In this document: positions 39,802 through 53,321 of the stretch, piece by piece
Layout: each line of letters opens with the position of its first letter
Position numbering within the stretch: position 1 is the stretch's first letter
Source of the DNA: Sphingobacteriales bacterium
GTDB lineage: Bacteria > Bacteroidota > Bacteroidia > Chitinophagales > Chitinophagaceae
Assembly (NCBI GenBank): GCA_024642285.1
Contig: JAHEBJ010000002.1
Location: 1 to 64,000, forward strand
Length of the DNA: 64,000 nucleotides
Direction of reading: 5' to 3'
The notes under the pieces: model-generated
The model's database searches: none
The model's input: only the letters and a program-made list of their open reading frames with translations
What the model was told of the DNA's origin: nothing
Program-made: the position numbers and the translations under genes

Positions 39802-40524
39802 CTACTTTACTATTTCAATCTGATCATTGGTAAGCAGCGGCAGATTTTTAAACCGCAGGACAATGTTTCCGGTGGTGATCACATCTTTTTCGCAGTAGGC
39901 AACAATGCGTTCCAGGTTTTTCTCTTTCCAATAAACATCACCTACCATGCTACCGTCTATATCATCTTTGGGAGAAGGCACATCCAATACCGCCGCTAAA
40001 AGCTTTAGGGAAGTATAATGTTTGTAGTCACCGAAACGCCAATATTGAAAGGTATCGATCATATTGGTTTCCCAAGGTTTCATATTTTGAAAGTCGAGAA
40101 AGGGAGGAATTGACATGCGGTTGATCAACAATCTACGGCAGATGAATGGGATATCAAACTCTTTAATGTTATGTCCTGTAAAACTCCACCGGTTATTGTT
40201 CACTTCCATCTTCTGCAGGGTTTCAATAAAATCCTGCAGCAATAACTTTTCATCATCGCCATAAAAAGATTTTAAACGCAGTTGAAATGATTTTCCCTCC
40301 CGTTTAAAATAGCCAACGCTAATGCAGATCACTTTTGCGAATTCGGCCATAACACCTGCCCTTTGCGGATAAAATTCAGCCGCCATTATCTCTTCGGGTA
40401 ACTGGCGTAGCACTTTTTCCTGCCATAGCGTTTGCCAATCCTCACTCAATTCGGCAAATGTTGCCTTTTCAGATACCGTTTCAATATCTATCAGCAGCAG
40501 GTTTTCTAATCTTATGTTTTGCAT
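39802..40524 (-). CDS. Predicted 3'-5' exonuclease, DnaQ/PolB-like
   Basis: A 240-residue DEDD-type exonuclease. ExoI is LLLIDIETVSE near residue 12, ExoII is SFTGHNIKEFDIPFI, and ExoIII is AYCEKDVITT. This is the predicted PolB-like exonuclease family that stands alone without a polymerase, thought to act in DNA repair or nucleic acid turnover. Its true substrate is unknown. Stand-alone gene. Confidence 0.82.
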   Translation of the reverse strand: MQNIRLENLLLIDIETVSEKATFAELSEDWQTLWQEKVLRQLPEEIMAAEFYPQRAGVMAEFAKVICISVGYFKREGKSFQLRLKSFYGDDEKLLLQDFIETLQKMEVNNNRWSFTGHNIKEFDIPFICRRLLINRMSIPPFLDFQNMKPWETNMIDTFQYWRFGDYKHYTSLKLLAAVLDVPSPKDDIDGSMVGDVYWKEKNLERIVAYCEKDVITTGNIVLRFKNLPLLTNDQIEIVK

Positions 40525-40638
40525 CCTCTATCATTAAGAGTTACAAAATACAAATCGAAATCTAAATATGCAATTGGGAAAATGCTGAATGATGAATGAT
40601 AAATTCTTCCACAAAAACTCACTACTTAAAACTCACGC

Positions 40639-41259
40639 CTAAAACGTCACCCCTATAAAAATCTGAATACTCTGGCTCTTCCAGCTCTGCCTGTTATCAA
40701 TAGCATTCAATTCGGTTAACCCTAATTTATAACGAGCTCCAATATTTACAACCGGAATCTGTATCCAGATGCCGCCAATAGCCGCCCATTCACCATTCTT
40801 ATAAATATTGCCATTGCTTTTCAAACTGTCCACAGTTTCTTTAATCAATCCGCCATATGCAGGGCCAATTTGAAGTTTTACCCTTTTGCTATTTCCAACA
40901 TTAATATTCAATAAAACCGGCACTTCAAGATAGTTCATGCTGGCTTTTTTTTGACTGCCGCCAAGGAACAGATCATAATAAATATCATTGGCATCGTTAC
41001 TAAACTCAGAAGAAGTTTGTACAAAATTAATTTCGGGTTGTATACCAAATCGCCTGGTAATATTAAACTGCATAAAAGCCCCTGCCTGAAAATTAAATTT
41101 AAACCCTTCTTTATACGACATCCCCGTTATCTTATTAATATTAACACCTCCCTTTGCGCCAAAGCGAAAAAAGTTTTCACGATCGCCGTTTAAAGGATTG
41201 CGTTGTGCAAACGAACCTGTAGAAATTAAAAGAAAAACAACCAGAAGTAATTTTTGCAT
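40639..41259 (-). CDS. Small outer-membrane beta-barrel protein (PorT-like fold)
   Basis: A 206-residue protein with signal peptide MQKLLLVVFLLISTGSFA cut before QRNPLNG. The rest alternates hydrophobic residues in strands of about ten (FRFGAKGGVNINKI, FNFQAGAFMQFNI, FGIQPEINFVQTSSE, NYLEVPVLLNINVG, VKLQIGPAYGGLI) and ends in IQIFIGVTF, a typical terminal strand with Phe last. It fits the outer membrane beta-barrel/PorT domain group. The role is not known. Confidence 0.82.
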   Translation of the reverse strand: MQKLLLVVFLLISTGSFAQRNPLNGDRENFFRFGAKGGVNINKITGMSYKEGFKFNFQAGAFMQFNITRRFGIQPEINFVQTSSEFSNDANDIYYDLFLGGSQKKASMNYLEVPVLLNINVGNSKRVKLQIGPAYGGLIKETVDSLKSNGNIYKNGEWAAIGGIWIQIPVVNIGARYKLGLTELNAIDNRQSWKSQSIQIFIGVTF

Positions 41260-41398: not shown

Positions 41399-43549
41399 TT
41401 AATCTTCTGCAATCTTCACTTTACCTTTTTGTTTAGCTATCACTTCTTCTGCAATATTATTTGGTGCAGGATTGTAATGACTAAACTCCATGGTAGAAGT
41501 GGCACGACCGCTCGATAATGAACGCAGCTGCGTTACATAACCAAACATTTCACTCAACGGAACTTTGGCTTTAATAACCTGTACACCATGCTTGCTGTCC
41601 ATACCTTCCAGCATTCCACGGCGACGGTTTAAGTCACCCGTAACATCACCCATGTATTGATCAGGAGTAAGTACTTCTACTTTCATGATCGGCTCAAGTA
41701 AAACAGGTTTTGCTTTACGGCCGGCTTCACGGTAACCCTGCTTGGCACAAAGTTCAAATGACATGGCATCTGAATCCACCTGGTGGAAGCTACCGTCCTT
41801 AACAGTCACTTTCATACTCTCCATTGGGTAACCTGCCAATACACCTGTTGTCATTGCAGTTTCAAAACCTTTTTGAATGGCCGGTACAAATTCTTTTGGA
41901 ATGCTACCACCAAACAATTTATTCTCGAACTGGAAATTTGATTTTCCTTCTTTCAGGAACTCTTCATCCGCTGGCCCTATCTCAAAAATGATATCGGCAA
42001 ACTTACCACGACCGCCGGTTTGCTTTTTCAGAGTCTCCCGATGATCAATTGTATTGTGAAATGCTTCTTTATAAGCCACCTGAGGTGCTCCCTGGTTGAT
42101 CTCAACTTTGAACTCACGTTTCATCCTGTCGATGATGATCTCAAGGTGTAATTCACCCATTCCACTTAAAATGGTTTGTCCGGTTTCCTCATCAGTCTTT
42201 ACACGCAAGGTTGGATCTTCTTCCACCAGTTTGGCGATAGCCATACCCATCTTATCAACGTCGGCCTGTGTTTTAGGTTCTACCGCAACACTGATAACCG
42301 GCTCAGGGAAAGTCATTGCTTCCAGAACGATCGGATGATCTTCATTACAAAGTGTATCTCCTGTTTTGATATCCTTAAATCCTACAGCAGCTCCAATATC
42401 ACCGGCTTCAATATAATCAACCGGGTTTTGTTTGTTGGCATGCATCTGCATGATACGGCTGATACGCTCGTTCTTTCCGGTACGGGTGTTCAACACATAC
42501 GAACCCGAATCTAAACGACCGCTATATGCCCGGAAGAAGGCTAGACGACCCACAAATGGATCCGTCATTATCTTAAATGCCAATGCGCTGAATGGCTCCT
42601 TAGGATCGCAACTGCGCAATAACTCTTCACCTGTATCAGGATTTGTTCCTTTAACAGCTTCAATATCCTTTGGACCCGGCAGGTAACGTACGATAGCATC
42701 CAATGCTGTTTGAACTCCTTTGTTTTTAAAAGAAGAACCACACATCATCGGGATAATAGAAATATCGATTGTAGCCTTACGGATTGCTTCATGAATTTCA
42801 GCTTCGGTAATGGTATTCGGATCATCAAAGAATTTCTCTAACAGATTATCATCATAATCGGCAACGGCTTCAATCAGGTGCTGCCTCCACTCGTTCACTT
42901 CTTCCACCATATCTTCCGGAATGGGCACTTCGCTAAAAGTCATTCCTAAAGTGGCATCATCCCAAACCATGGCTTTCATGGTGATCAGATCAACCACACC
43001 TTTAAAATTATCTTCGGCACCTATCGGCAACTGCAAAGGCACAGCTTTAGCACCCAGCATTTCTTTGATCTGCTTTACAACATTTAAGAAATCTGCTCCG
43101 GCGCGGTCCATCTTGTTTACAAAACCAATACGTGGTACTTTGTAACGGTTAGCCTGGCGCCATACAGTTTCGCTCTGTGGCTCAACGCCAGATACAGCAC
43201 AAAACAGAGCTAATAAACCATCCAATACACGTAATGAACGCTCTACCTCTACAGTAAAGTCCACGTGACCCGGGGTATCAATAATGTTGAATTTATATTG
43301 CTTGGTATCGGGTGTTTTCTGCCCCTGTTCCATTGGAAAATTCCAAAAACAGGTAGTAGCAGCCGAAGTAATAGTAATACCTCTTTCCTGCTCCTGGGCC
43401 ATCCAGTCCATGGTAGCGGCACCATCGTGTACCTCACCTATTTTGTGGTTAACACCGGTATAATACAATATACGCTCGGTTGTGGTGGTTTTACCGGCAT
43501 CAATATGAGCGGCAATTCCAAAATTTCTTTGATAACGTAAATCTGCCAT
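41399..43549 (-). CDS. fusA: Elongation factor G
   Basis: EF-G drives translocation on the ribosome. The 716-residue protein has all GTPase motifs: [15 protein letters not shown] (G1), RGITITSA (G2), DTPGHVDF (G3), NKMDRAGAD (G4), CGSSFKNKG (G5), then domains II to V ending in [14 protein letters not shown]. It is the canonical housekeeping type, not a GTPase-dead variant. Unlike most Bacteroidota, it is not joined to rpsG on one side or rpsJ on the other: about 9.3 kb and 41 kb intervene. It has a full promoter with a long leader (about 190 bases) and its own terminator. Confidence 0.96.
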
Positions 43550-43725
43550 TTTTTTTTGTTTGCTCCTTTATCCAGTTAAGAAAAAAGGTTTGTTATTAAT
43601 TAAATTTTAATGTGATTGTTGATGAATGATATCTCCCGTAGGTAGTTCCCTGTAACGGGCTGGGCTGATATGTTTTACAATACTCTCATAGTGTGCTAAA
43701 TAAATACCGCTCCATCCTTGTATTA

Positions 43726-43744
43726 CCGCTGTACCTTTTAGCGG
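43726..43744 (-). other. 5' leader hairpin of fusA mRNA
   Basis: On the minus strand CCGCT pairs with AGCGG around a nine-base loop, at about the expected transcription start of the fusA promoter. Such a structure at the extreme 5' end could protect the mRNA or bind a regulator. The remaining ~170 bases of leader show no open frame. Confidence 0.45.
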
Positions 43745-43746
43745 CG

Positions 43747-43777
43747 CAAAGGTATGGTTTATTTGAATACGGGCAAA
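43747..43777 (-). promoter_or_regulatory. Promoter of fusA
   Basis: On the minus strand TTTG, 19 bases, TACCTTTG: a perfect Bacteroidota promoter. It sits between the stop of the GMC small subunit gene and fusA, about 197 bases before the fusA ATG. It makes fusA independent of the genes upstream. Confidence 0.7.
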
Positions 43778-43794
43778 GCGAAATATCTGCCTTT

Positions 43795-44409
43795 TTAAGC
43801 CCAGGCCTTATCGCCTTTTTTGTACGGATAAGCTCCGTCATATTTACCCGGTATGGGTAAAAACCGTAAAGCCTGCTTTGTACCAATCTCCGATGTGAAA
43901 TATCCCAACAGGGTTAGCTGTTTCATCAATGTATAATAATGTGGCGGTTCACCATAAAATTCTTTGAAGGCTTCCTTTGCCGCATCACGGGCGGATTTTT
44001 CCTTTTCATTTTTTGCTTCATTGAAAGCTTTTGCTTCGGCCTCAAGTGCAGTTAAAACGGCCATTCGCTGTTCGGGTGCCAGATCCACAAAATTCTTATC
44101 AAATTGTTTTTTACAACCTGCATCAAGGCTTGTCAAACCTTCTGTAAATGCTTTTTGCACTTCGGGGCGATAGCAATCGGTTGTGTACACATTCATAAAC
44201 TCACCAATCTTTGCTGCTTTTGCTCCGGGCGTATCGGTGTCTGGCAGGATGGTATCTCCTACTTCATCAAGCGTAGCAATGTTTGAAGCGGATAATAATC
44301 CCATTCCTTCTTTTACCGAAGATCTGCATCCCGATAAAAACACATCACCACCAATTAAAGCACCGCCGGTTAAAACGGCAATCATTTTTAAAAGCTCCCT
44401 ACGTTCCAT
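43795..44409 (-). CDS. Gluconate 2-dehydrogenase subunit 3-type small subunit, Tat signal
   Basis: A 204-residue partner subunit of a membrane-bound GMC dehydrogenase. The N-terminus MERRELLKMIAVLTGG has a twin-arginine pattern and then a lipobox-like FLSGC, so the complex is probably exported folded through Tat and held at the membrane. The mature part has the family pattern LDEVGDTILPDTDTPGAKAA, and FYGEPPHYYTLMKQLTLLGYFTSEIG near the end. The GMC catalytic subunit is the gene directly upstream (29 bases). Pairing with cytochrome c, as in glucoside 3-dehydrogenases, would complete the enzyme; a cytochrome c gene lies in the divergent half of the locus. Confidence 0.85.
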   Translation of the reverse strand: MERRELLKMIAVLTGGALIGGDVFLSGCRSSVKEGMGLLSASNIATLDEVGDTILPDTDTPGAKAAKIGEFMNVYTTDCYRPEVQKAFTEGLTSLDAGCKKQFDKNFVDLAPEQRMAVLTALEAEAKAFNEAKNEKEKSARDAAKEAFKEFYGEPPHYYTLMKQLTLLGYFTSEIGTKQALRFLPIPGKYDGAYPYKKGDKAWA

Positions 44410-44438
44410 AAAATTTATTTACTCAATTTTTAATTGGG

Positions 44439-46121
44439 TTACAGGTTACCCTTTTTCAATTCCTTTACTGCAAAGTCAGCTGCTCTTGCAGTAATTGCCA
44501 TGTAGGTTAGAGAAGGATTCACACAGCTGGCACTTGTCATACAGGCACCGTCGGTAACAAAAACATTGGGTGCATCCCAAACCTGATTATTACCATTGAG
44601 TACCGAAGTTTTAGGATCACGGCCCATACGTGCAGTTCCCATTTCATGTATGCCCATGCCCGGTGTATAGCCCCAATCATTCTGACTTACATTTTTAATC
44701 CCCGCTGCTTCCAGCATTTCAGCCGCATCGGCCATCATATCTTTCCGCATGCGTATTTCGTTCTCTTTCATTTCAACATCCATTGCCAAAACCGGTAATC
44801 CCCATTTATCGGTTACAGTTTTATTCAGGTATATTCTGTTACTGTGATCGGGCAGCATTTCTCCAAAGCCGGTCAGGCCAATTCCCCATTTCCCCGGTTC
44901 GGTCAACGATTCTTTTAGTGCCGCACCGATTGTCATCTCAGCAATCTCAACACCCCTTCCCCTACCGGCACCTCCCTGATAGCCGAAGCCACGCAGGTAA
45001 TCACGTTTATCATCATAAATATTGCGGAACCTCGGAATATAAATACCAGTTGGCCTTTTTCCATACACATACATATCTTCAAAACCTTCGGCTGTTCCCG
45101 AAGCACCGATTCTGAAATGATGATCCATAACATTGTGTCCCAATTCGCCGCTACTGCTGCCCAAACCATCGGGCCAGATATCGGTGGCACTGTTCATCAA
45201 CAACCAGGTGCTGTTGAATGAGGAGGCACAAACAAAAATTATTTTGGCGGTGTAGGTATAGGTTTTGTTTTCAACAGCATCAATCACTTCAACGCTGGTT
45301 GCTTTCTTCTTGTCTTTATCAAAAATTATCTTAGTTACGATCTTATCGGTTTCCAATGTAAGGTTACCGGTTGCGTTAGCCGCAGGTAAGGTTGCAGATT
45401 GTGTACTAAAATATGCACCAAAAGGGCAACCCCGCCAGCAGCGGTTCCGGTACTGGCAGCTCACCCTGTTCTGCTCGGGTTTGGCCTGCGTGATATTTGC
45501 ACTGCGGCCGATGATCATGTGGCGTTTTCCGTTATAATGTGCTTTTATTTTTGCGGCCACATCTTTTTCTACAACATTTAAATCCATCGCCGGTAAAAAT
45601 TCACTGTCTGGTAACACCTCAAGACCTTCCTTACTGCCCTGTATACCGGCAAATTTTTCTACATAACTGTACCAGGGAGCAAGGTCGTCGTACCGGATCG
45701 GCCAGTCAACAGCAATGCCTTCTTTTGCATTGGCTTCAAAATCCCATTTGTTCCAGCGGTAACTCTGCCGGCCCCAAAGTAAAGAGCGGCCACCCAGATG
45801 ATAGCCACGGTACCAGTCAAAACGTTTGTCTTCGGTATAGGGATTTTCTTTTTCGTTGGCCCACATTCCGTCTGTTTCTTCATTGAGTGGATAATCCCGC
45901 CGCAGTACCGGATGATCCTCTTTCATCTTCTGTGTTGCATGGCCACGGTGCGGAAATTCCCATGCTTCTTTATTGGCATTCACATAGTCTTTCACATGTT
46001 CGATATTTCTGCCTCGTTCAAGCATCACTACTTTCAATCCTTTTTCGGTCAGTTCCTTAGCCGCCCATCCGCCGGCAATTCCCGATCCAACTACTATGGC
46101 ATCGAAATCAAATTTTGACAT
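44439..46121 (-). CDS. GMC-family FAD oxidoreductase, probable periplasmic sugar dehydrogenase
   Basis: The 560-residue flavoprotein has the ADP-binding loop VVGSGIAGGWAAKELTEKG at the N-terminus, WGRQSYRWNKWDF, and the C-terminal catalytic blocks GIHEMGTARMG (active-site His) and CVNPSLTYMAITARAAD (Asn). It has a Cys-rich insert CQYRNRCWRGCPFGAY. It lacks its own signal peptide and would ride through Tat with the small subunit. GMC enzymes with this small subunit oxidise sugars or glycosides, for example gluconate at C2 or glucosides at C3. The DUF1080 gene in the same locus favours glycoside C3 oxidation. The substrate is not proven. Confidence 0.85.
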   Translation of the reverse strand: MSKFDFDAIVVGSGIAGGWAAKELTEKGLKVVMLERGRNIEHVKDYVNANKEAWEFPHRGHATQKMKEDHPVLRRDYPLNEETDGMWANEKENPYTEDKRFDWYRGYHLGGRSLLWGRQSYRWNKWDFEANAKEGIAVDWPIRYDDLAPWYSYVEKFAGIQGSKEGLEVLPDSEFLPAMDLNVVEKDVAAKIKAHYNGKRHMIIGRSANITQAKPEQNRVSCQYRNRCWRGCPFGAYFSTQSATLPAANATGNLTLETDKIVTKIIFDKDKKKATSVEVIDAVENKTYTYTAKIIFVCASSFNSTWLLMNSATDIWPDGLGSSSGELGHNVMDHHFRIGASGTAEGFEDMYVYGKRPTGIYIPRFRNIYDDKRDYLRGFGYQGGAGRGRGVEIAEMTIGAALKESLTEPGKWGIGLTGFGEMLPDHSNRIYLNKTVTDKWGLPVLAMDVEMKENEIRMRKDMMADAAEMLEAAGIKNVSQNDWGYTPGMGIHEMGTARMGRDPKTSVLNGNNQVWDAPNVFVTDGACMTSASCVNPSLTYMAITARAADFAVKELKKGNL

Positions 46122-46157
46122 GTTGTAAAGATTATAAAATGATCAGTTAATTTCTGT

Positions 46158-47027
46158 TTATACATCGCATACTTTTATCGCATCTGCAAGCGATGCAATC
46201 TTGTCATTCTTTTTTGGAATAAATTCCTGCGCCACGTACCCTTTAAAACCCGTTACTACAATCGCATTCATGATGGCAGGATAAAAAAGTTCCTGCGTTT
46301 CATCTATTTCATTCCTTCCGGGTACTCCGGCCGTATGGTAATGACCGAAATATTCATGATTTTGCTGAATGGTACGTATTACATCGCCCTCATTGATCTG
46401 CATATGGTAAATATCGTAGAGCAGTTTAAAATTAGGACTGCCGAGTTTTTTGCAAAGTGCAACTCCCCATTCCGATTTATCGGCCATATAATCCTTATGA
46501 TCAACCTTACTGTTGAATAGTTCCATCTGTATTACAACGCCTTTCTTTTCGGCAAGTCCGATTATTTTTTTCAGTCCTTCCACACAATTGTTCATCCCGG
46601 TTTCATTATCCATACCGTTTCTGTTTCCGCTAAAGCAGATTAAATTTTTGTACCCCGCTGCAGCAACAAGTTCAATGTGTTCGGTATAATTTTTTATTAA
46701 AGTATCATGGTATTGCAGATCATTCCATCCTTTTGTCAAACCAATTTCGGCACCGTTACACATGCTGCTGTCCATGCCATGTGTTTTTAATATAGCCCAG
46801 TCTTTGGGACCAACAAGATCAATTGCTTTAATTCCGATTTTTTTGGCTGCTAGACAAAGTTCATCCAGCGAAAGAAAACCGTAGGTCCAGCGGCACACGG
46901 AATGATTGATATTGTTTTTCAGATCGAAAGAATGATTATCAAAACTTCGGGCCACCGATTGAACAGGTGCCAATGCAACTGCAGCAGTACCTGTAATCAA
47001 TGTTTGAATTAGTTTTCTTCTTTTCAT
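46158..47027 (-). CDS. Periplasmic TIM-barrel hydroxypyruvate isomerase-like protein
   Basis: The 289-residue protein belongs to the xylose isomerase-like TIM-barrel superfamily. The N-terminus MKRRKLIQTLITGTAAVA has a twin-arginine-type signal, which suggests export. The barrel has SVCRWTYGFLSLDELCLAAK, NLICFSGNRNG, VVIQMELFNSKVDH, LLYDIYHMQINEGD and GHYHTAGVPGRNE, with the Glu/Asp/His/Glu metal ligands of the hydroxypyruvate isomerase group. The overlapping start with the MFS gene (ATGA) and closeness to the GMC genes indicate a shared role in sugar conversion. The true substrate is probably not hydroxypyruvate. Confidence 0.83.
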   Translation of the reverse strand: MKRRKLIQTLITGTAAVALAPVQSVARSFDNHSFDLKNNINHSVCRWTYGFLSLDELCLAAKKIGIKAIDLVGPKDWAILKTHGMDSSMCNGAEIGLTKGWNDLQYHDTLIKNYTEHIELVAAAGYKNLICFSGNRNGMDNETGMNNCVEGLKKIIGLAEKKGVVIQMELFNSKVDHKDYMADKSEWGVALCKKLGSPNFKLLYDIYHMQINEGDVIRTIQQNHEYFGHYHTAGVPGRNEIDETQELFYPAIMNAIVVTGFKGYVAQEFIPKKNDKIASLADAIKVCDV

Positions 47028-48247
47028 GTTGTAAGTGGTTCAACGGGTTTTTTCCCGTTTTTGAAAATCAGTAAAAATAAAAGTGAAACGCCAGTAGCAA
47101 ATAGGCAAGGGATGAGCCAGATTGCTTTCCAGTCATGACCTCCATCAGCCAATACATATTTATCAACAATCAATCCGGCCATATAAAAACCTATATACAT
47201 GCCCACCCCATAAGTTGCCAATGTTATTAACCCTTGTGCCGAGGAACGGATTTGCGGACCTGCTTTCTGGTCGGTATAAATTTGGCCTGTCACAAAAAAG
47301 AAATCATAACAAATACCATGTAAAATAATACCCGTGTATAACATCCACACATTGCCGCCCACATCCCCGTATGCAAAAAGCAGGTAACGGAGTATCCAGG
47401 CAATCATCCCTATCAATAACATTTGTTTTATGCCAAACCGGGCAAAGAAAAAAGGCATCAGGAATAAAAACACGGTTTCTGCAATTTGCCCCATTGTCAT
47501 CTTGCCAGCAGCACCAACCATGCCTGCCTCATTCAAAAACAAATTGGCCTGTCCATAATAAAATGCCAATGGAATACAAATGAGGATTGAGGCAATAAAA
47601 AAAACGAGGTAATTTTTATCTTTTAGTATTTTGATCGCATCAAGTCCCAGCACTTCACTAACAGTAACTTTTTGTCCGGCTTTTGGTGGTGGCGTGCCGG
47701 GAAGAAAGAAACTACCAATGCCAAGCAGGGCAGAAACAGCCGCCGCAACTTTAAATGTGATAGACAAGGTATCCGGATTTTTTTCCCAGGCCATTCCGCC
47801 GATGATCAGTCCGGCAACTATCCAGCCGATTGTACCCCACATGCGTATGCCCGAAAATTCCTTCTCGGCATTGGTTACCTGTTTCAACGTGATGGCATTC
47901 ACCAATGCCAGCGTGGGCATATAAATGACCATGTAAATGATGAGCAAAGAATAGAATGATGCAAAGCCGGTTTGTCCGGCAATAAAATATAAAACGCCGG
48001 CACCCGCCAGATGCAGTAATCCCAATATTTTTTGCGCCGAAAAAAACTTATCAGCAATAAGACCGATGATGAATGGAGCAATGATGGCACCCAGGCATTG
48101 TGTACCGTAAGCCAGCCCCGTTTGTTCGCCGGTGGCAGCGATATTACCTTTCATTAAAAAAGTTCCCATGGTAACAAACCATATTCCCCAAACAAAAAAG
48201 TTCAGGAACATCATGGACGACAATTTCAATCGGATGGTTAGATTCAT
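47024..48247 (-). CDS. MFS transporter, nucleoside/sugar permease type
   Basis: A 407-residue protein with about twelve membrane helices. It starts MNLTIRLKLSSMMFLNFFVW and has GIWFVTMGTF, YGTQCLGAIIAPFIIGLIAD, and GIRMWGTIGWIVAGLIIG, the pattern of the nucleoside:proton symporter (NupG/XapB) family. In Bacteroidota, members within sugar loci probably carry sugars or derivatives. It is first in the minus-strand operon with the TIM barrel, GMC and small subunit genes, and would bring the cleaved product into the cytoplasm. Confidence 0.82.
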   Translation of the reverse strand: MNLTIRLKLSSMMFLNFFVWGIWFVTMGTFLMKGNIAATGEQTGLAYGTQCLGAIIAPFIIGLIADKFFSAQKILGLLHLAGAGVLYFIAGQTGFASFYSLLIIYMVIYMPTLALVNAITLKQVTNAEKEFSGIRMWGTIGWIVAGLIIGGMAWEKNPDTLSITFKVAAAVSALLGIGSFFLPGTPPPKAGQKVTVSEVLGLDAIKILKDKNYLVFFIASILICIPLAFYYGQANLFLNEAGMVGAAGKMTMGQIAETVFLFLMPFFFARFGIKQMLLIGMIAWILRYLLFAYGDVGGNVWMLYTGIILHGICYDFFFVTGQIYTDQKAGPQIRSSAQGLITLATYGVGMYIGFYMAGLIVDKYVLADGGHDWKAIWLIPCLFATGVSLLFLLIFKNGKKPVEPLTT

Positions 48248-48453
48248 GCAGCAGCAATTTGTAAGTTGGTAAAAAGTAAATCCTCAGGTAAATATAAATT
48301 TTTTGCCTTTATAAAACTGATAAAATAGTTCCCTTTATTCTTCGGGTGCTTGTATATTAAAACCGTCAATTATATTCCGATGCATTTTTGATAACAGTTG
48401 CTAATTATTTTTCTTTTAAATTTACTGAACTGATAATTCACTAATTTTTGGCA

Positions 48454-49611
48454 ATGCAACGAAAACTGAATATGGGCATGGTTGGCGGAGGCAAAGATGC
48501 TTTCATAGGAGCAGTACACCGCATGGCGGCAAACCTGGATGGACATATTCAATTGGTATGTGGAGCTTTCAGCAGCGATGCACAAAAAAGCAAGGTAAGC
48601 GGAGCGGCTTTAAACCTGCCTGCCCAAAGGGTTTATGGCAGCTATGCCGAAATGTTTGAGCAGGAAAAATTATTGCCCGATGGCGAACGGATGGATTTTG
48701 TAAGCATTGTAACGCCCAATCACCTGCATTTTGAACCAGCAAAAATGGCTTTGGAAAATGGCTTTGATGTGCTACTGGATAAGCCCATGACATTTGATCT
48801 TGCCGAAGCAAAAGATCTGAAATCAATTTTAGATAAAAGCGGGAGACTACTTTGTCTTACACATACGTACACAGGTTATCCCATGGTTAAGGAAGCAAAA
48901 GAAATCATCCGTCAAAATAAACTGGGGGCCATCAGAAAAATATATGTCAGTTATCCGCAGGGATGGCTGAGTACTTTTTTAGAAGGCAGCAACCAGAAAC
49001 AGGCTGCCTGGCGTACCGACCCCAAACGCAGCGGCATGGCCGGAAGCATGGGCGATATCGGAACACATGCTTTTAACCTGGCAGAATATATCAGCGGTTT
49101 GCAGGTTGCAAAGATTTGTGCTGATATAAATACTGTTGTTGATGGCCGTAAACTGGATGATGATGGAACCGTGTTACTTAAATTTAATAAGGGTGCTTCT
49201 GGAATGTTGTACGCCACGCAGATAGCTGCAGGCGAGGAAAATAATATCCGGCTAAATATTTACTGCGAAAAAGGCGGACTGGAATGGAAACAGGAGGATA
49301 ACAATTCACTGATTATTAAATGGCTGGATAAGCCGGCAGAAATTTTAAGGGCCGGTAATGATTATTTAAGTCCGTTTGCAAAATTCAATTGCAGAGTACC
49401 CGCCGGACATCCTGAAGGATACCTGGAAGCATTTGCCAACCTGTACCGGAATTTTGCATTGACATTGATGGCAAAACAAAACGGAACAATAGCATTGGAG
49501 GAGTGGAAAGATTTTCCGGGAATGGAAGAAGGCATCAGAGGCATGGCTTTTATTGAAAATGTAATTGCCAGCGGCAAGAGTGAAACCAAATGGAAAGAAT
49601 TTGAAGTATGA
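48454..49611 (+). CDS. Gfo/Idh/MocA-family oxidoreductase
   Basis: NAD(P)-dependent sugar oxidoreductase of 386 residues; the ATG at 48454 is used (an in-frame TTG lies two codons earlier). The Rossmann fold starts LNMGMVGGGKDAFIGAVHRM. The catalytic Lys lies in LLDKPMTFDLAEAK, where the usual EKP is DKP. GDIGTHAFNLAEYISG supplies the His/Asp motif. No signal peptide, so cytoplasmic. In this locus it could reduce a 3-keto sugar back to the hexose or oxidise a sugar. It opens the plus-strand operon, divergent from the MFS gene with 206 bases between. Confidence 0.85.
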   Translation: MQRKLNMGMVGGGKDAFIGAVHRMAANLDGHIQLVCGAFSSDAQKSKVSGAALNLPAQRVYGSYAEMFEQEKLLPDGERMDFVSIVTPNHLHFEPAKMALENGFDVLLDKPMTFDLAEAKDLKSILDKSGRLLCLTHTYTGYPMVKEAKEIIRQNKLGAIRKIYVSYPQGWLSTFLEGSNQKQAAWRTDPKRSGMAGSMGDIGTHAFNLAEYISGLQVAKICADINTVVDGRKLDDDGTVLLKFNKGASGMLYATQIAAGEENNIRLNIYCEKGGLEWKQEDNNSLIIKWLDKPAEILRAGNDYLSPFAKFNCRVPAGHPEGYLEAFANLYRNFALTLMAKQNGTIALEEWKDFPGMEEGIRGMAFIENVIASGKSETKWKEFEV

Positions 49612-49642
49612 CAGCAGGCAGTTTATTTATAAAAAATAAAAT

Positions 49643-50698
49643 ATGCAAACAATTAAAGGGCCGGGAATTTTTTTAGCTCAGTTCATGTGCGATAAAGAAC
49701 CGTTCAATTCGCTGGAAGGAATTTGCAGATGGGCTGCATCATTAGGATTCAAAGCAGTGCAGATACCCACCTGGGAAAAAAGACTGATTGATTTGAAACT
49801 GGCTGCAGAAAGTAAAGACTATTGTGATGAGCTGAAAGGAAAGATAAATTCTTATGGTCTGGCCATTTCAGAATTGAGTACGCATTTGCAGGGACAGCTG
49901 GTGGCTGTTCATCCGGCATACGATGTACAATTTGATTCTTTTGCACCTGAAGAACTGCATGGCAATTCAAAAGCAAGACAGGAGTGGGCGGTACAACAGG
50001 TTATGTACGGGGCCAAAGCCTCGCAGCACCTCGGGCTTACTGCCCATGGTACTTTTAGTGGCTCCTTGCTCTGGCATACTTTTCATCCCTGGCCGCAGCG
50101 GCCCGAGGGGTTGGTGGATGAAGGCTTTACTGAACTGGCAAAACGATGGATGCCTATCTTAAATTATTTTGATGAATGCGGCGTGAATGTCTGTTATGAA
50201 ATTCATCCGGGAGAAGACCTTTTTGATGGCATCACTTATGAAATGTTTTTGGAGAAAGTGAATAACCATCAGCGTGCCTGCTTGTTATACGATCCATCGC
50301 ATTTTGTTTTACAACAACTGAATTATATTGAGTACATAGATATTTATCACGAACGCATCAAAGCCTTTCATGTAAAAGATGCCGAGTTTAATGCAACCGG
50401 AAGACAGGGAACTTTTGGTGGATACCAAAGCTGGTTGAAACGTGCCGGCCGCTACCGCAGTCCGGGCGACGGGCAGGTAGATTTTAAAACCATCTTCAGC
50501 AAACTCACCGAATATGGTTACGATGGCTGGGCTGTTATGGAATGGGAATGTTGCATTAAACATCCCGAAGACGGAGCAAGAGAAGGTGCAGCGTTCATCA
50601 ACGATCATATCATAAGAGTAACTGATAAAGCTTTTGATGATTTTGCAGGCACCTTGCCCGATGCTGATCGGAATAAAAAAATTCTTGGGATTAAATAA
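49643..50698 (+). CDS. Cytoplasmic sugar phosphate isomerase/epimerase-like TIM barrel
   Basis: The 351-residue protein is a xylose isomerase-like TIM barrel without signal peptide. Visible blocks are WAASLGFKAVQIPTWEKRL, ELSTHLQGQL, CYEIHPGEDLFDG (metal-binding Glu), LLYDPSHFVLQQ (Asp/His), KAFHVKDAEFN (His) and AVMEWECCIKHPEDG (Glu). Two relatives in this locus (at 46158 and 51889) carry export signals, so this one would act inside the cell. Likely isomerises or epimerises a sugar or keto-sugar. The cytochrome c gene follows 13 bases later. Confidence 0.82.
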   Translation: MQTIKGPGIFLAQFMCDKEPFNSLEGICRWAASLGFKAVQIPTWEKRLIDLKLAAESKDYCDELKGKINSYGLAISELSTHLQGQLVAVHPAYDVQFDSFAPEELHGNSKARQEWAVQQVMYGAKASQHLGLTAHGTFSGSLLWHTFHPWPQRPEGLVDEGFTELAKRWMPILNYFDECGVNVCYEIHPGEDLFDGITYEMFLEKVNNHQRACLLYDPSHFVLQQLNYIEYIDIYHERIKAFHVKDAEFNATGRQGTFGGYQSWLKRAGRYRSPGDGQVDFKTIFSKLTEYGYDGWAVMEWECCIKHPEDGAREGAAFINDHIIRVTDKAFDDFAGTLPDADRNKKILGIK

Positions 50699-50711
50699 AA
50701 AACTACTGATC

Positions 50712-51086
50712 ATGAAGAAATTAATTGCAATCTTTTTTGTTGCAACTTATTTATACGCTTGCAGTGGCGGCGATGATAAAAAAATTGAATCCGGCAATAA
50801 ATCAACTTCTGCAATGGACAATCCCGATTATGATGCCGGGCTGAACCTGATTGCGAAATCGGATTGTTTTACCTGCCATAAATTAAGAGAGCCGTTGGTT
50901 GGTCCGCCTTATGGAGAAGTTGCAAAAAAATACCCTAATACGCCTGAGAACGTGAGTTTGCTTGCGGACCGGATATTAAAAGGAAGTTCTGGTATTTGGG
51001 GACAGGTACCTATGCTGGCACACCCCAACATAAAAAAAGAAGATGCAGAAAAAATGGTAAAATATATTTTATTGCTAAAGGAATAA
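50712..51086 (+). CDS. Lipoprotein c-type cytochrome, single haem
   Basis: The start at 50712 gives MKKLIAIFFVATYLYAC with lipobox Cys17; the longer open frame would overlap the gene before it. The 124-residue protein has one CxxCH haem site in SDCFTCHKL and a distal Met ligand in VPMLAHPNIK, with VGPPYGEVAKKY in between, a class I cytochrome c. It is anchored on the periplasmic side and is a good candidate for the electron acceptor of the GMC dehydrogenase. It sits between a TIM-barrel gene and the DUF1080 gene. Confidence 0.9.
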   Translation: MKKLIAIFFVATYLYACSGGDDKKIESGNKSTSAMDNPDYDAGLNLIAKSDCFTCHKLREPLVGPPYGEVAKKYPNTPENVSLLADRILKGSSGIWGQVPMLAHPNIKKEDAEKMVKYILLLKE

Positions 51087-51096
51087 ATCAATTAAA

Positions 51097-51831
51097 ATGA
51101 AAAGAACAGGATTTATCATGCTGCTGGCAATTGGTTTTGCCGCATGTAATTCTCAATCAGAAAAAAAAGAAGAAACAGTAATGGCTGAAACAAACACTGA
51201 TAGCGGATGGATTTCGCTGTTCGACGGGCAGAGTTTAAAAGGCTGGCACAATTACGGAAAGGCATCAGTAGGCGAAGCATGGAAAGTTGCTGATGGAAAT
51301 CTATACCTTGACACAACGCAAAAAGATGGTTGGCAAATAAAGGGTGGTGGCGATATTATAACCGATGAGGCCTTTGAAAATTTTCATCTTAAACTGGAAT
51401 GGAAAATAGCGCCCAATGGCAACAGTGGTATCATATTTTATATACATGAAGACACGGCTAAATATGACCATGTTTGGCAAACGGGCCCCGAAATGCAGGT
51501 GCTGGACAATGACGGGCATGGGGATGGAAAAATCACCAAACACCGGGCAGGCGATTTGTACGACCTTATTTCCTGCAGCACTGAAACGGTGAAACCCGTT
51601 GGCGAATGGAACGCAGTTGAAATTATTTCAAACAACGGCAAACTTGATTTTATTTTAAATGGAACAAATGTAGTCAGTACCATTTTATGGGATGAAGCAT
51701 GGACCAATCTCGTTGCAGGCAGCAAGTTTAAGCAATGGCCAGGATTTGGAACTTATAAGGAAGGGCATATTGCATTACAGGATCATGGCAATACGGTTTG
51801 GTATCGAAACATAAAAATAAAACGACTTTAA
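51097..51831 (+). CDS. DUF1080 lipoprotein, 3-keto-glycoside hydrolase family
   Basis: A 244-residue lipoprotein (MKRTGFIMLLAIGFAAC, lipobox Cys17). The mature part is a concanavalin-like beta sandwich with DUF1080 marks: WISLFDGQSLKGWHNYG, FHLKLEWKIAPNGNSGIIFY, GPEMQVLDNDGHGDGK, AGDLYDLI and GEWNAVEIISNNGKLDF. The family is now named 3-keto-disaccharide hydrolase, from enzymes that cleave glycosides after oxidation at C3. With the GMC dehydrogenase and cytochrome c in the same locus, this fits well. The lipid anchor places cleavage outside the inner membrane. Confidence 0.88.
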   Translation: MKRTGFIMLLAIGFAACNSQSEKKEETVMAETNTDSGWISLFDGQSLKGWHNYGKASVGEAWKVADGNLYLDTTQKDGWQIKGGGDIITDEAFENFHLKLEWKIAPNGNSGIIFYIHEDTAKYDHVWQTGPEMQVLDNDGHGDGKITKHRAGDLYDLISCSTETVKPVGEWNAVEIISNNGKLDFILNGTNVVSTILWDEAWTNLVAGSKFKQWPGFGTYKEGHIALQDHGNTVWYRNIKIKRL

Positions 51832-51849
51832 CCGATAAAGCGAATACAT

Positions 51850-51878
51850 AAAAAGCAGCTCAAATAAGCTGCTTTTTA
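51850..51878. terminator. Bidirectional terminator
   Basis: AAAAAGCAGCT and AGCTGCTTTTT form a stem around CAAATA, with A-run and T-run flanks, between the DUF1080 gene and the convergent TIM-barrel gene. Confidence 0.9.
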
Positions 51879-51888
51879 TTTACCGTAT

Positions 51889-52764
51889 CTATATTTTTCG
51901 AAGCAGTTTTTTTACTTCCTTATTGCTGGTGGTAATACTTCCAAAATAGTCAGGTGCATAATTAGTTTCCTGTTCAACAATAAAATGTTTTACACCGGCC
52001 AGCTTAGCCGATTTAAATATCTTTTTAAAATCCAGCATACCGTTGCATATCTCTGTGTTCTGCGTTTTATCAGTTTTCGACATATCTTTTACATGCCATA
52101 AATGAAACCTGCCGGGATGAGCGTTAAACAATTCTATAGGATCATAACCGGCCTTTACCACCCAATAGAGATCCATTTCCATCTTCATCAGATCTTTATC
52201 TGTATTATTCAGCAATACATCATAACCGTTTCCTCCGCCAAGATCTGTAAATTCAAAATCGTGGTTATGGTAAGCCAGTTGAAGATTGGCTTTTTTACAA
52301 ATCTCTCCTGCCTTATTCAGACGTTCGGCTAGTATTTTATATTGGTCTATAGTTTTACGTTTGTCTGCACTTAACCATGGAATGATGATATACCTGTTCC
52401 CCAATTCATTGGCAACTTCACATAAATTTTTTACATCATCGCCATTGCCATTCTCAAATAAAAATTTGTCGGGCATGTAATGGCCACTGGGGCTGCTGAG
52501 GTTATTAGCCTTTAACAATGTAGCAATTTCCTTTACCGTTTTGCCAAAAAAAGTATTTCCTCCAGCAAGTCCGTACATTTCCACTTCGCCATATCCTGCT
52601 TTTGCAATCTGGCTTAAAACGCCGGGTACATCTTTACTGATTATATCCCGAAGGGTGTATAGTTGCAATCCTATTCCTGGTGTTTTACCAAATACCAATT
52701 GCGGCATGGCTACAAATCCTGCAGATAATACAGCCGAATGTTTTAAAAATTCTCTTCTTTTCAT
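51889..52764 (-). CDS. Exported TIM-barrel sugar isomerase/epimerase-like protein
   Basis: A 291-residue protein with a classic twin-arginine signal (MKRREFLKHSAVLSAGFVA). The xylose isomerase-like barrel shows IGLQLYTLRDIISKDVPGVL, YGEVEMYGLAGGN, LAYHNHDFEFTDLGG (metal-binding His/Glu region), MEMDLYWVVKAG, LWHVKDMSK (His) and FIVEQETNY (Glu). It is the third TIM barrel of the locus and acts outside the cytoplasm. Related proteins in oxidative sugar pathways convert or cleave 3-keto sugars. It is convergent with the DUF1080 gene and separated from rpsG by a strong terminator. Confidence 0.83.
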   Translation of the reverse strand: MKRREFLKHSAVLSAGFVAMPQLVFGKTPGIGLQLYTLRDIISKDVPGVLSQIAKAGYGEVEMYGLAGGNTFFGKTVKEIATLLKANNLSSPSGHYMPDKFLFENGNGDDVKNLCEVANELGNRYIIIPWLSADKRKTIDQYKILAERLNKAGEICKKANLQLAYHNHDFEFTDLGGGNGYDVLLNNTDKDLMKMEMDLYWVVKAGYDPIELFNAHPGRFHLWHVKDMSKTDKTQNTEICNGMLDFKKIFKSAKLAGVKHFIVEQETNYAPDYFGSITTSNKEVKKLLRKI

Positions 52765-52802
52765 CTGCCTATTTGTTTTAATATACTGAAAATAAGAAAA
52801 TA

Positions 52803-52833
52803 AAATGGCCGCTCCAAAAATGGAGCGGCCGTA
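52803..52833 (-). terminator. rpsG terminator
   Basis: GGCCGCTCC and GGAGCGGCC form a perfect nine-pair GC-rich stem with an ATTTTT loop, then a T-rich tail on the minus strand. It ends the rpsL-rpsG transcript 21 bases after the rpsG stop. Confidence 0.9.
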
Positions 52834-52853
52834 TAAAATTTATCTCAATTTAA

Positions 52854-53321
52854 TTAGATCCTGAAGTGAGCGAAAGCTTTGTTAGCCTCAGCCATACGAT
52901 GTGTATCTTCTTTTTTCTTGTATGAAGCACCTTCACCTTTACTTGCTGCTACAATTTCATTGGCTAACTTATCTGCCATACTGCGTCCGTTACGCTCACG
53001 GCTGTATTTGATCATCCACTTGATGCTCAAAGAAACTTTTCTGTCTTGGCGAACTTCAGCAGGAATCTGGAAAGTTGCACCACCAATACGGCGGCTCTTT
53101 ACTTCTACTCCAGGTGTAATATTAGCCAGCGCTTTTTTCCAAACCTCATATCCATCTTCTCCGGTCTGCTTGGCAACTTTATCCAATGCATCATAAAAAA
53201 TTATGTAAGCACCACTTTTTTTACCAGCCCACATCAGGTTGTTTACAAAACGTGTAACCAACTTATCATTGAATTTAGGATCTGGTGCTAAGGGAATCTT
53301 TTTCGGTTGTGTTTTCCTCAT
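52854..53321 (-). CDS. rpsG: 30S ribosomal protein S7
   Basis: S7 nucleates the assembly of the 30S head and contacts E-site tRNA. The 155 residues show [56 protein letters not shown] and [18 protein letters not shown], all family hallmarks. It follows rpsL by 53 bases, but the next gene is not fusA as is normal in the phylum. The strong terminator after it confirms that the transcript stops here. Confidence 0.96.

Follow-up and report, generated by a model that had tools for sequence, protein, structure and literature searches.

A nine-gene cluster between rpsG and fusA in a Sphingobacteriales bacterium matches described pathways of oxidative glycoside cleavage and lies next to a candidate fusA leader RNA

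The first 64,000 nucleotides of contig JAHEBJ010000002.1 of a Sphingobacteriales bacterium (family Chitinophagaceae; assembly GCA_024642285.1), referred to here as the window, carry nine genes that fill positions 43795-52764 between rpsG and fusA. Taken together, these genes probably (probability about 0.82) encode a pathway that runs from the periplasm to the cytoplasm and cleaves glycosides by oxidation rather than by direct hydrolysis. The pathway has already been described, and the cluster adds one more example of it. Though real, the finding is for the most part ordinary and contributes little beyond the conservation of the C3-oxidation route in Bacteroidota and the assignment of two barrel proteins. 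The more novel lead is the rpsG-fusA junction, together with a candidate RNA leader upstream of fusA.

Gene content and proposed pathway

Using open reading frames and a Pfam scan, it was found that each of the nine proteins contains at least one domain scoring above its cut-off. An earlier note, made from the sequence alone, had placed this gene set between rpsG and fusA as two divergent operons and one flanking gene, and both the genes and their layout agree with what was found: an operon at 48247-43795 on the minus strand is divergent from one at 48454-51831 on the plus strand, with a convergent barrel gene at 52764-51889 on the minus strand. Export signals and lipoboxes, here and below, were read by eye from the N termini, without a predictor.

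43795..44409, minus strand: small subunit of the GMC complex (Gluconate_2-dh3, PF13618; 129.6 bits, cut-off 23.4), with the motif RRELLK and a lipobox-like LSGC
44439..46121, minus strand: GMC flavoprotein dehydrogenase, putative glycoside 3-dehydrogenase large subunit (Pfam, PDB match)
46158..47027, minus strand: TIM1, xylose-isomerase-like barrel, probably exported (Pfam, 38-sequence alignment, AlphaFold model, PDB searches)
47024..48247, minus strand: major facilitator superfamily (MFS) carrier, Nuc_H_symport (370.4 bits, cut-off 25.9), putative importer of oxidized sugar
48454..49611, plus strand: Gfo/Idh/MocA oxidoreductase, putative 3-keto-glucose reductase (Pfam, PDB 3v5n)
49643..50698, plus strand: TIM2, homolog of 2-hydroxy-3-keto-glucal hydratase (PDB 8ro4)
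50712..51086, plus strand: cytochrome c lipoprotein, putative electron acceptor of the GMC complex (Pfam; one CxxCH; lipobox by eye)
51097..51831, plus strand: DUF1080/3-keto-disaccharide hydrolase lipoprotein (PF06439, PDB matches)
51889..52764, minus strand: TIM3, homolog of the beta-eliminase AtOGE, with a Tat-like signal (PDB 8tcd and 8bvk, active-site residues)

The reactions proposed for these proteins are carried over from their homologs, and we infer the substrate, the specificity of the carrier, the route of the electrons, the compartment of each step and the part played by the third barrel. On the outer side of the inner membrane, a sugar would be oxidized at C3 by the GMC dehydrogenase, which would leave the cytoplasm together with its small subunit of the twin-arginine translocation (Tat) type, and the electrons would pass through the cytochrome c lipoprotein to the respiratory chain. 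Exported TIM3 would open the 3-keto-glycoside by beta-elimination, giving a 2-hydroxy-3-keto-glycal and the aglycone, while the DUF1080 lipoprotein may open it beside or in place of TIM3. Following import of the cleavage product by the MFS carrier, cytoplasmic TIM2 would hydrate the glycal to a 3-keto-sugar, which the Gfo/Idh/MocA enzyme would reduce to glucose or a related hexose. TIM1 may act on an intermediate as a metal-dependent epimerase or isomerase.

Probable enzymes of cleavage and conversion

The three barrels score 72.6, 128.1 and 70.8 bits against the Pfam family AP_endonuc_2 (cut-off 31.1). TIM2 matched PDB entry 8ro4, named 2-hydroxy-3-keto-glucal hydratase, across residues 1-350 (E = 3.9e-162, 543 bits), and on sequence grounds it is the likely enzyme of the hydration step. 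As neither a signal peptide nor a lipobox is evident in TIM2 or in the Gfo/Idh/MocA enzyme, hydration probably takes place after import, which reverses the order in the earlier note, where the barrels acted first.

TIM3 matched PDB entries 8tcd, 8tcs and 8tct, all at E values of about 1e-29 to 1e-30 (6.1e-30 for 8tcd), as well as 8bvk (E = 1.7e-20). The last of these is the Agrobacterium O-glycoside beta-eliminase AtOGE, in which residues E39, H66, H132, H134, E161, D163, H189 and E233 have been assigned to a metal site, an alternative metal site or catalysis (PMC10628242). All eight have counterparts in TIM3 (E62, H95, H166, H168, E196, D198, H224 and E264) and are invariant across 25 aligned sequences. 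TIM3 is the likely enzyme of the beta-elimination step. With likely elimination and hydration steps thus given to TIM3 and TIM2, cleavage need not depend on the DUF1080 protein alone, to which the earlier note had assigned it. The DUF1080 protein nevertheless belongs firmly to its family (PF06439, 171.1 bits against a cut-off of 26.8), and its PDB matches 8rr2, 8tda and 9fbe (E values of 1e-41 to 1e-42) are named 3-keto-disaccharide hydrolase or glycosyl hydrolase, 8rr2 being a 3-keto-disaccharide hydrolase domain protein. The Gfo/Idh/MocA enzyme carries three Pfam domains (90.4, 64.7 and 56.3 bits; cut-offs 27, 24 and 22.9) and has 3v5n as its best PDB match (376 bits).

TIM1 is the least explained of the nine parts. 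Four residues are invariant in an alignment of 38 sequences (E169, D205, H231 and E268), which we take to be an epimerase-type metal site. Its AlphaFold model (mean predicted local distance difference test score of 86.3) fits YcjR (6wn6, a 3-keto-D-glucoside 4-epimerase) and the hydroxypyruvate-isomerase-like 3ngf equally, with a TM-score of 0.77 by target length, and its sequence profile is nearer to 3ngf (E = 3e-18) than to YcjR (E = 2.3e-6). The best NCBIfam match is hydroxypyruvate isomerase, at 92.5 bits far under the cut-off of 353. Most likely, TIM1 epimerizes or isomerizes a pathway intermediate in a metal-dependent manner. Of the route set out in the earlier note, oxidation by the GMC enzyme with cytochrome c, extracytoplasmic cleavage, import and reduction would fit what is known of the homologs; the barrels had been misassigned.

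Proposed oxidation module

The GMC protein contains both Pfam domains of its family (N domain, 70.3 bits; C domain, 83.5 bits; cut-offs 23 and 24.6), and a search of the PDB returned the large subunits of fructose and glucose dehydrogenases as its nearest solved structures, the best match being that of fructose dehydrogenase (E = 1.4e-36). Its gene adjoins that of the Gluconate_2-dh3 small subunit, in which the RR motif and the lipobox-like site point to putative export. N termini that are twin-arginine-like were read in the small subunit, TIM1 and TIM3, and lipobox-like sequences in the cytochrome c and DUF1080 proteins. The cytochrome c protein scores 29.1 bits for Cytochrom_C (cut-off 21.3) and has a single CxxCH motif, CFTCH at residue 52. 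One match to COX1 was found in the genome, consistent with the terminal oxidase of an aerobic chain.

Spread of the gene set

A search of other genomes for the same genes, as the earlier note had proposed, found the set repeatedly. Matches to the GMC protein at E values of at most 1e-80 are present in 100 of 147 family genomes, and up to 20 kb was fetched around good matches to give 20 family loci. The seven core genes (GMC, small subunit, TIM1, Gfo/Idh/MocA, TIM2, cytochrome c and DUF1080) occur together in 15 of these; among the remaining five, L042 and L047 are cut by the end of the fetched stretch. Most often, DUF1080, cytochrome c, TIM2 and Gfo/Idh/MocA follow one another in this order and diverge from a second group made up of MFS (absent from some loci), TIM1, GMC and small subunit, with a relative of TIM3 (31-48% identity) following the small subunit in 16 of the 20 loci.

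Beyond the family, the best 80 of 591 confirmed TIM2 matches were taken as named Bacteroidota loci, 22 of which are shorter than 20 kb. With identity floors applied, relatives were identified in these 80 loci for Gfo/Idh/MocA (76), cytochrome c (72), DUF1080 (71), GMC (62), MFS (61), TIM1 (57), TIM3 (56) and the small subunit (56). All seven core genes are found in 34 of the 58 loci of at least 20 kb (36 without the floors). The nearest named relatives of TIM2, among the matches listed, are in Lacibacter luteus and in Chitinophagaceae metagenome-assembled genomes.

Relatives of TIM2 were also identified in 372 plasmid records, four of which were read. A Pseudoalteromonas plasmid operon has a reductase, a hydratase-like barrel, MFS, DUF1080, GMC, small subunit and a barrel annotated side by side, with identities of 57% for the reductase, 67% for the hydratase and 35% for DUF1080, and a Croceicoccus plasmid carries a reductase, hydratase, small subunit and GMC. 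Plasmids of Phyllobacterium (L158) and Azospirillum (L159) harbor a hydratase-reductase pair near ATP-binding cassette (ABC) sugar transporters, and no GMC or DUF1080 relative was found in the 17 kb read of them; the pair may therefore serve other inputs in Alphaproteobacteria.

Comparison with described pathways

The matches of TIM2 and TIM3 give the sequence of oxidation, beta-elimination, hydration and reduction that has been described for Agrobacterium tumefaciens, where GlycDH, an eliminase, a hydratase and a Gfo oxidoreductase encoded in one operon were assigned the same four steps, hydration on preliminary evidence (PMC10628242). Shared with that GlycDH/AtOGE/AtHYD/Gfo pathway are a GMC-type flavoprotein with a Tat-type partner, an AtOGE-type eliminase with all the named active-site residues, a very high-scoring hydratase homolog and, by superfamily and gene neighborhood, a candidate Gfo/Idh/MocA 3-keto-glucose reductase; the GlycDH of Rhizobium sp. 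GIN611 was likewise expressed with a Tat-pathway protein (PMC10628242). In contrast to the Agrobacterium pathway, the window clusters a cytochrome c, a DUF1080 protein, an MFS carrier and a third barrel in divergent operons, and its eliminase has a Tat-like signal.

The lac cluster of Caulobacter crescentus, for which fitness data exist, comprises lacABC, DUF1080, a transporter, two epimerases and a reductase (PMC9007349). By the description in that article its list of protein families is the same as that of the window, which differs in having three barrels. Genes for LacA and DUF1080 have also been placed near each other in Indibacter, called a Bacteroidetes there (PMC9007349). With the 3-keto-disaccharide system BT2157-BT2158 of Bacteroides thetaiotaomicron the window shares a DUF1080 protein and, as proposed here, periplasmic C3 oxidation (PMC11300592, PMC9007349), BT2158 being a periplasmic glycoside 3-dehydrogenase (PMC11300592). 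The first step in the window would instead be taken by the GMC enzyme, and a BT2158-type first step (NF058561) was ruled out, as the Gfo/Idh/MocA enzyme reaches 29.5 bits where the cut-off demands 750. The levoglucosan pathway of Bacillus smithii (LgdA/B1/B2/C) has the same four-step order of oxidation, elimination, hydration and reduction, although its first step is performed by the levoglucosan dehydrogenase LgdA (PMC7676230); a first step of that type (NF052479) was likewise ruled out for the Gfo/Idh/MocA enzyme (99.3 bits, cut-off 650).

The earlier note had also called the cluster an alternative to polysaccharide utilization loci. No match to SusD (PF07980), GH3 (PF00933) or alpha-amylase (PF00128) was found on the window's contig, other glycoside hydrolase families not having been searched for in the genome, and elsewhere in the genome other contigs carry six SusD matches, three GH3 matches and four alpha-amylase rows (two open frames). 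Because SusD and GH3 genes are present on those contigs, the description is true of the interval alone.

Weighing of alternatives

Several observations weigh against an oxidative pathway formed by all nine genes. Congener G154 (L194) keeps six of the nine at the same site between rpsG and fusA (TIM3, DUF1080, cytochrome c, hydratase, reductase and MFS), without TIM1, GMC and the small subunit, and its best GMC elsewhere in the genome is just 34% identical, so that the rest of the cluster can exist without this GMC. The MFS gene is absent from several otherwise complete family loci, and L044 and L059 are without most of the seven-gene set. In the Pseudoalteromonas operon, TIM3 and GMC share 24% and 32% identity with their counterparts, and MFS and the small subunit are placed by annotation alone. 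Finally, fructose and glucose dehydrogenases act at carbons other than C3; as these are the closest solved relatives of the GMC enzyme, its sequence does not establish selectivity for C3.

A narrower version of the pathway, in which it is dedicated to lactose, is possible if rather unlikely. The GMC enzyme would then be a lactose 3-dehydrogenase, the DUF1080 protein a 3'-ketolactose hydrolase and TIM1 a 4-epimerase channeling galactosides and glucosides. The family list held in common with the Caulobacter lac cluster (PMC9007349) and the alignment of the TIM1 model with YcjR favor it; however, LacABC also has salicin and raffinose phenotypes (PMC9007349), 3ngf fits TIM1 with an equal TM-score and a better E value, and the substrate is not readable from sequence.

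It is improbable that the cluster serves inositol or polyol catabolism, with the Gfo/Idh/MocA enzyme and the barrels as inositol dehydrogenase and inosose dehydratase/isomerase and the GMC enzyme oxidizing a polyol or free monosaccharide. The resemblance of the GMC enzyme to fructose and glucose dehydrogenases would fit such a role, as would weak matches to myo_inos_iolE (TIM2, 71.9 bits; TIM3, 51.6 bits) and iolG (Gfo/Idh/MocA enzyme, 56.5 bits), but these scores lie far under the curated cut-offs (290 and 355 bits), and inositol catabolism was rejected on them. Moreover, TIM2 matches 8ro4 far more strongly, TIM3 retains the AtOGE active site and a DUF1080 protein belongs to the gene set. That sugar genes came together by chance in a cargo-rich gap, forming no single pathway, is very improbable: unrelated cargo does occupy the rpsG-fusA gap in other genomes and TIM3 can adjoin rpsG while the other genes sit elsewhere, but the gene set recurs across Bacteroidota, away from this site most of the 20 family loci keep these genes clustered, with order and orientation largely unchanged, and the co-occurrence of the seven core genes in 15 of these argues against chance.

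The rpsG-fusA junction

The nine-gene cluster is flanked in the window by the following features, and the gap between rpsG and fusA spans 43550-52853. Both rpsG and rpsL, which adjoin each other in the loci of relatives, were named by reading their sequences, not by Pfam scan.

41399..43549, minus strand: fusA, encoding elongation factor G (EF-G), downstream flank (Pfam EF-G domains)
43666..43754, minus strand: candidate RNA leader of fusA, starting at the promoter-like TACCTTTG and containing the conserved UAUGAGAG and CAUAUC
52807..52830, minus strand: terminator-like hairpin directly after rpsG (10-pair stem, T-rich tail)
52854..53321, minus strand: rpsG, upstream flank (sequence reading)

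To place this arrangement, 98 family genomes were searched; rpsG was found in 92 (one match each) and fusA in 90. The two genes share a strand in 43 genomes, with fusA no more than 30 kb downstream of rpsG; the distance between them is less than 600 bases in 18, 600-1500 bases in nine and at least 1500 bases in 16 (window included). The two genes are on one contig but far apart, reversed or on opposite strands in nine further genomes, and the remaining genomes are uninformative, with the genes on separate draft contigs or one match missing. Leaving the window aside, 15 genomes have a large gap, and 13 of these gaps were read. One, in G066 of another genus, carries the whole cluster, and no cluster gene was found in the other 12 at the thresholds used. 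By sequence reading, without a Pfam scan, the cargo of the other large gaps includes, for example, a regulator with an RND efflux set and a two-component system. The rpsG-fusA gap is thus a recurrent cargo site in the family; "inserted", the term used in the earlier note, is fair for the site and misses this recurrence.

Within the window's genus, rpsG was matched in 51 of 59 genomes. Among the 30 nearest congeners (window included), TIM3 directly follows rpsG in six, and in six fusA lies within about 1.4 kb of rpsG, four of these gaps being shorter than 400 bases. Three of the gaps read contain the full cluster, namely those of the window and of G066 and G203, two genomes of another genus. 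The gap of G191 holds relatives of cytochrome c and DUF1080. On separate contigs of G166, rpsG has TIM3 as its neighbor and fusA has TIM1-GMC-small subunit. The presence of the cluster in the gaps of several genomes makes its association with the site common to several species and at least two genera. In the named Bacteroidota loci (best 80 of 591), rpsG, rpsL and fusA were seen in none of the 80.

The place of the cluster between rpsG and fusA looks incidental, because a terminator-like hairpin follows rpsG and fusA has a promoter-like motif and leader of its own. A terminator scan gave 16 sites against 10.0 expected and is therefore weak alone; by eye, hairpins on the rpsG side are also present in the empty gaps of congeners.

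Candidate leader RNA of fusA

The motif TACCTTTG, located 5' of fusA and followed by the conserved leader, is called promoter-like here on the basis of the Bacteroidetes -7 promoter consensus. TANNTTTG was found in 35 of 39 stretches upstream of fusA taken from the loci, some of which come from the same genome. The conserved UAUGAGAG may resemble the sarcin-ricin loop of 23S rRNA.

A first model of the leader was built from 16 sequences of the genus, selected with a pattern in which GCTAAA, TTTAGC, ATGAGA and CATA are fixed, so that invariance at these positions is by construction. The outer stem is invariant in the 16 sequences and gives no covariation signal there. Folded singly, 14 of the 16 form the stem; the window and L164 do not, and the absence of the stem from the window's own minimum-energy fold speaks against the hairpin. 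When 195 family genomes were searched with this model under strict filters, 27 gave a match at E values of at most 0.01. Twenty of the 27 were fetched, and in all 20 the match is on the strand of fusA, about 80-215 bases 5' of that gene. With the window counted, the leader is beside fusA in 21 of the 27 matching genomes; three weak matches (G097, G050 and G056) are on contigs other than that of the fusA match, and G217, G227 and G132 fell outside the check.

A second set consisted of 18 sequences found by the first model, which already contained a six-pair stem; 17 are from other genera and one is from congener G034. Using RNAalifold, a 12-pair hairpin was derived in which nine pairs are changed on both sides, the covariation test being made on the same 18 sequences that yielded the structure. 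In this alignment 91.5% of cells pair, compared with 71.6% in shuffles, and the covariation score is 0.555, whereas shuffles give 0.189 and none of 500 attained the observed value. Of five measures, the number of pairs changed on both sides was reached by nine of 500 shuffles and the other four by none. Related sequences can beat shuffles without any structure; however, the score was at most 0.208 when the pairing partner was slid, which speaks against kinship as the sole explanation of the covariation. The second model, built from the 18 sequences, matched the window (E = 2e-11) and all 14 other loci of the genus that it was given. None of the 17 other sources was matched, 15 of which include the start of fusA, and the leader thus belongs to part of the family.

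No Rfam family matched the leader, the one entry returned being a CRISPR repeat (E = 2.7) far below the gathering score. Streptococci have been reported to carry leaders of fusA, as has Pelagibacter according to a citation in the same article (PMC2965389), so that the kind of element is known. For Bacteroidetes, no such leader or interrupted str operon was found in the portions of the literature available, whose coverage leaves subscription journals largely outside.

A joint reading of leader and junction, to which we give an even chance, is that the str operon rpsL-rpsG-fusA is split in part of the family, that the covarying leader may control EF-G synthesis and that the gap is a tolerated landing site for lineage-specific gene sets. 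By this reading, the split is what would let such sets settle and stay, examples being the proposed 3-keto-glycoside route, efflux genes and a two-component system. One of the most conserved gene neighborhoods of bacteria stands open in this family, and if the leader does control EF-G synthesis, it would offer a directly testable system of autoregulation.

fusA sequences and downstream flank

The fusA of the window is 82% to 95% identical to those of congeners. It shares 94% identity with that of G045, from another genus, and 82% with that of congener G034; horizontal acquisition of fusA was considered and dropped, as several other congeners proved to be 94-95% identical. Two fusA-like genes each are present in G051 and G006. 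By sequence reading, the downstream side of fusA in the window (39802-41259) encodes exonuclease-like and outer-membrane-like proteins, and in G066 (locus L061) rpsJ-like and rplC-like genes follow fusA instead.

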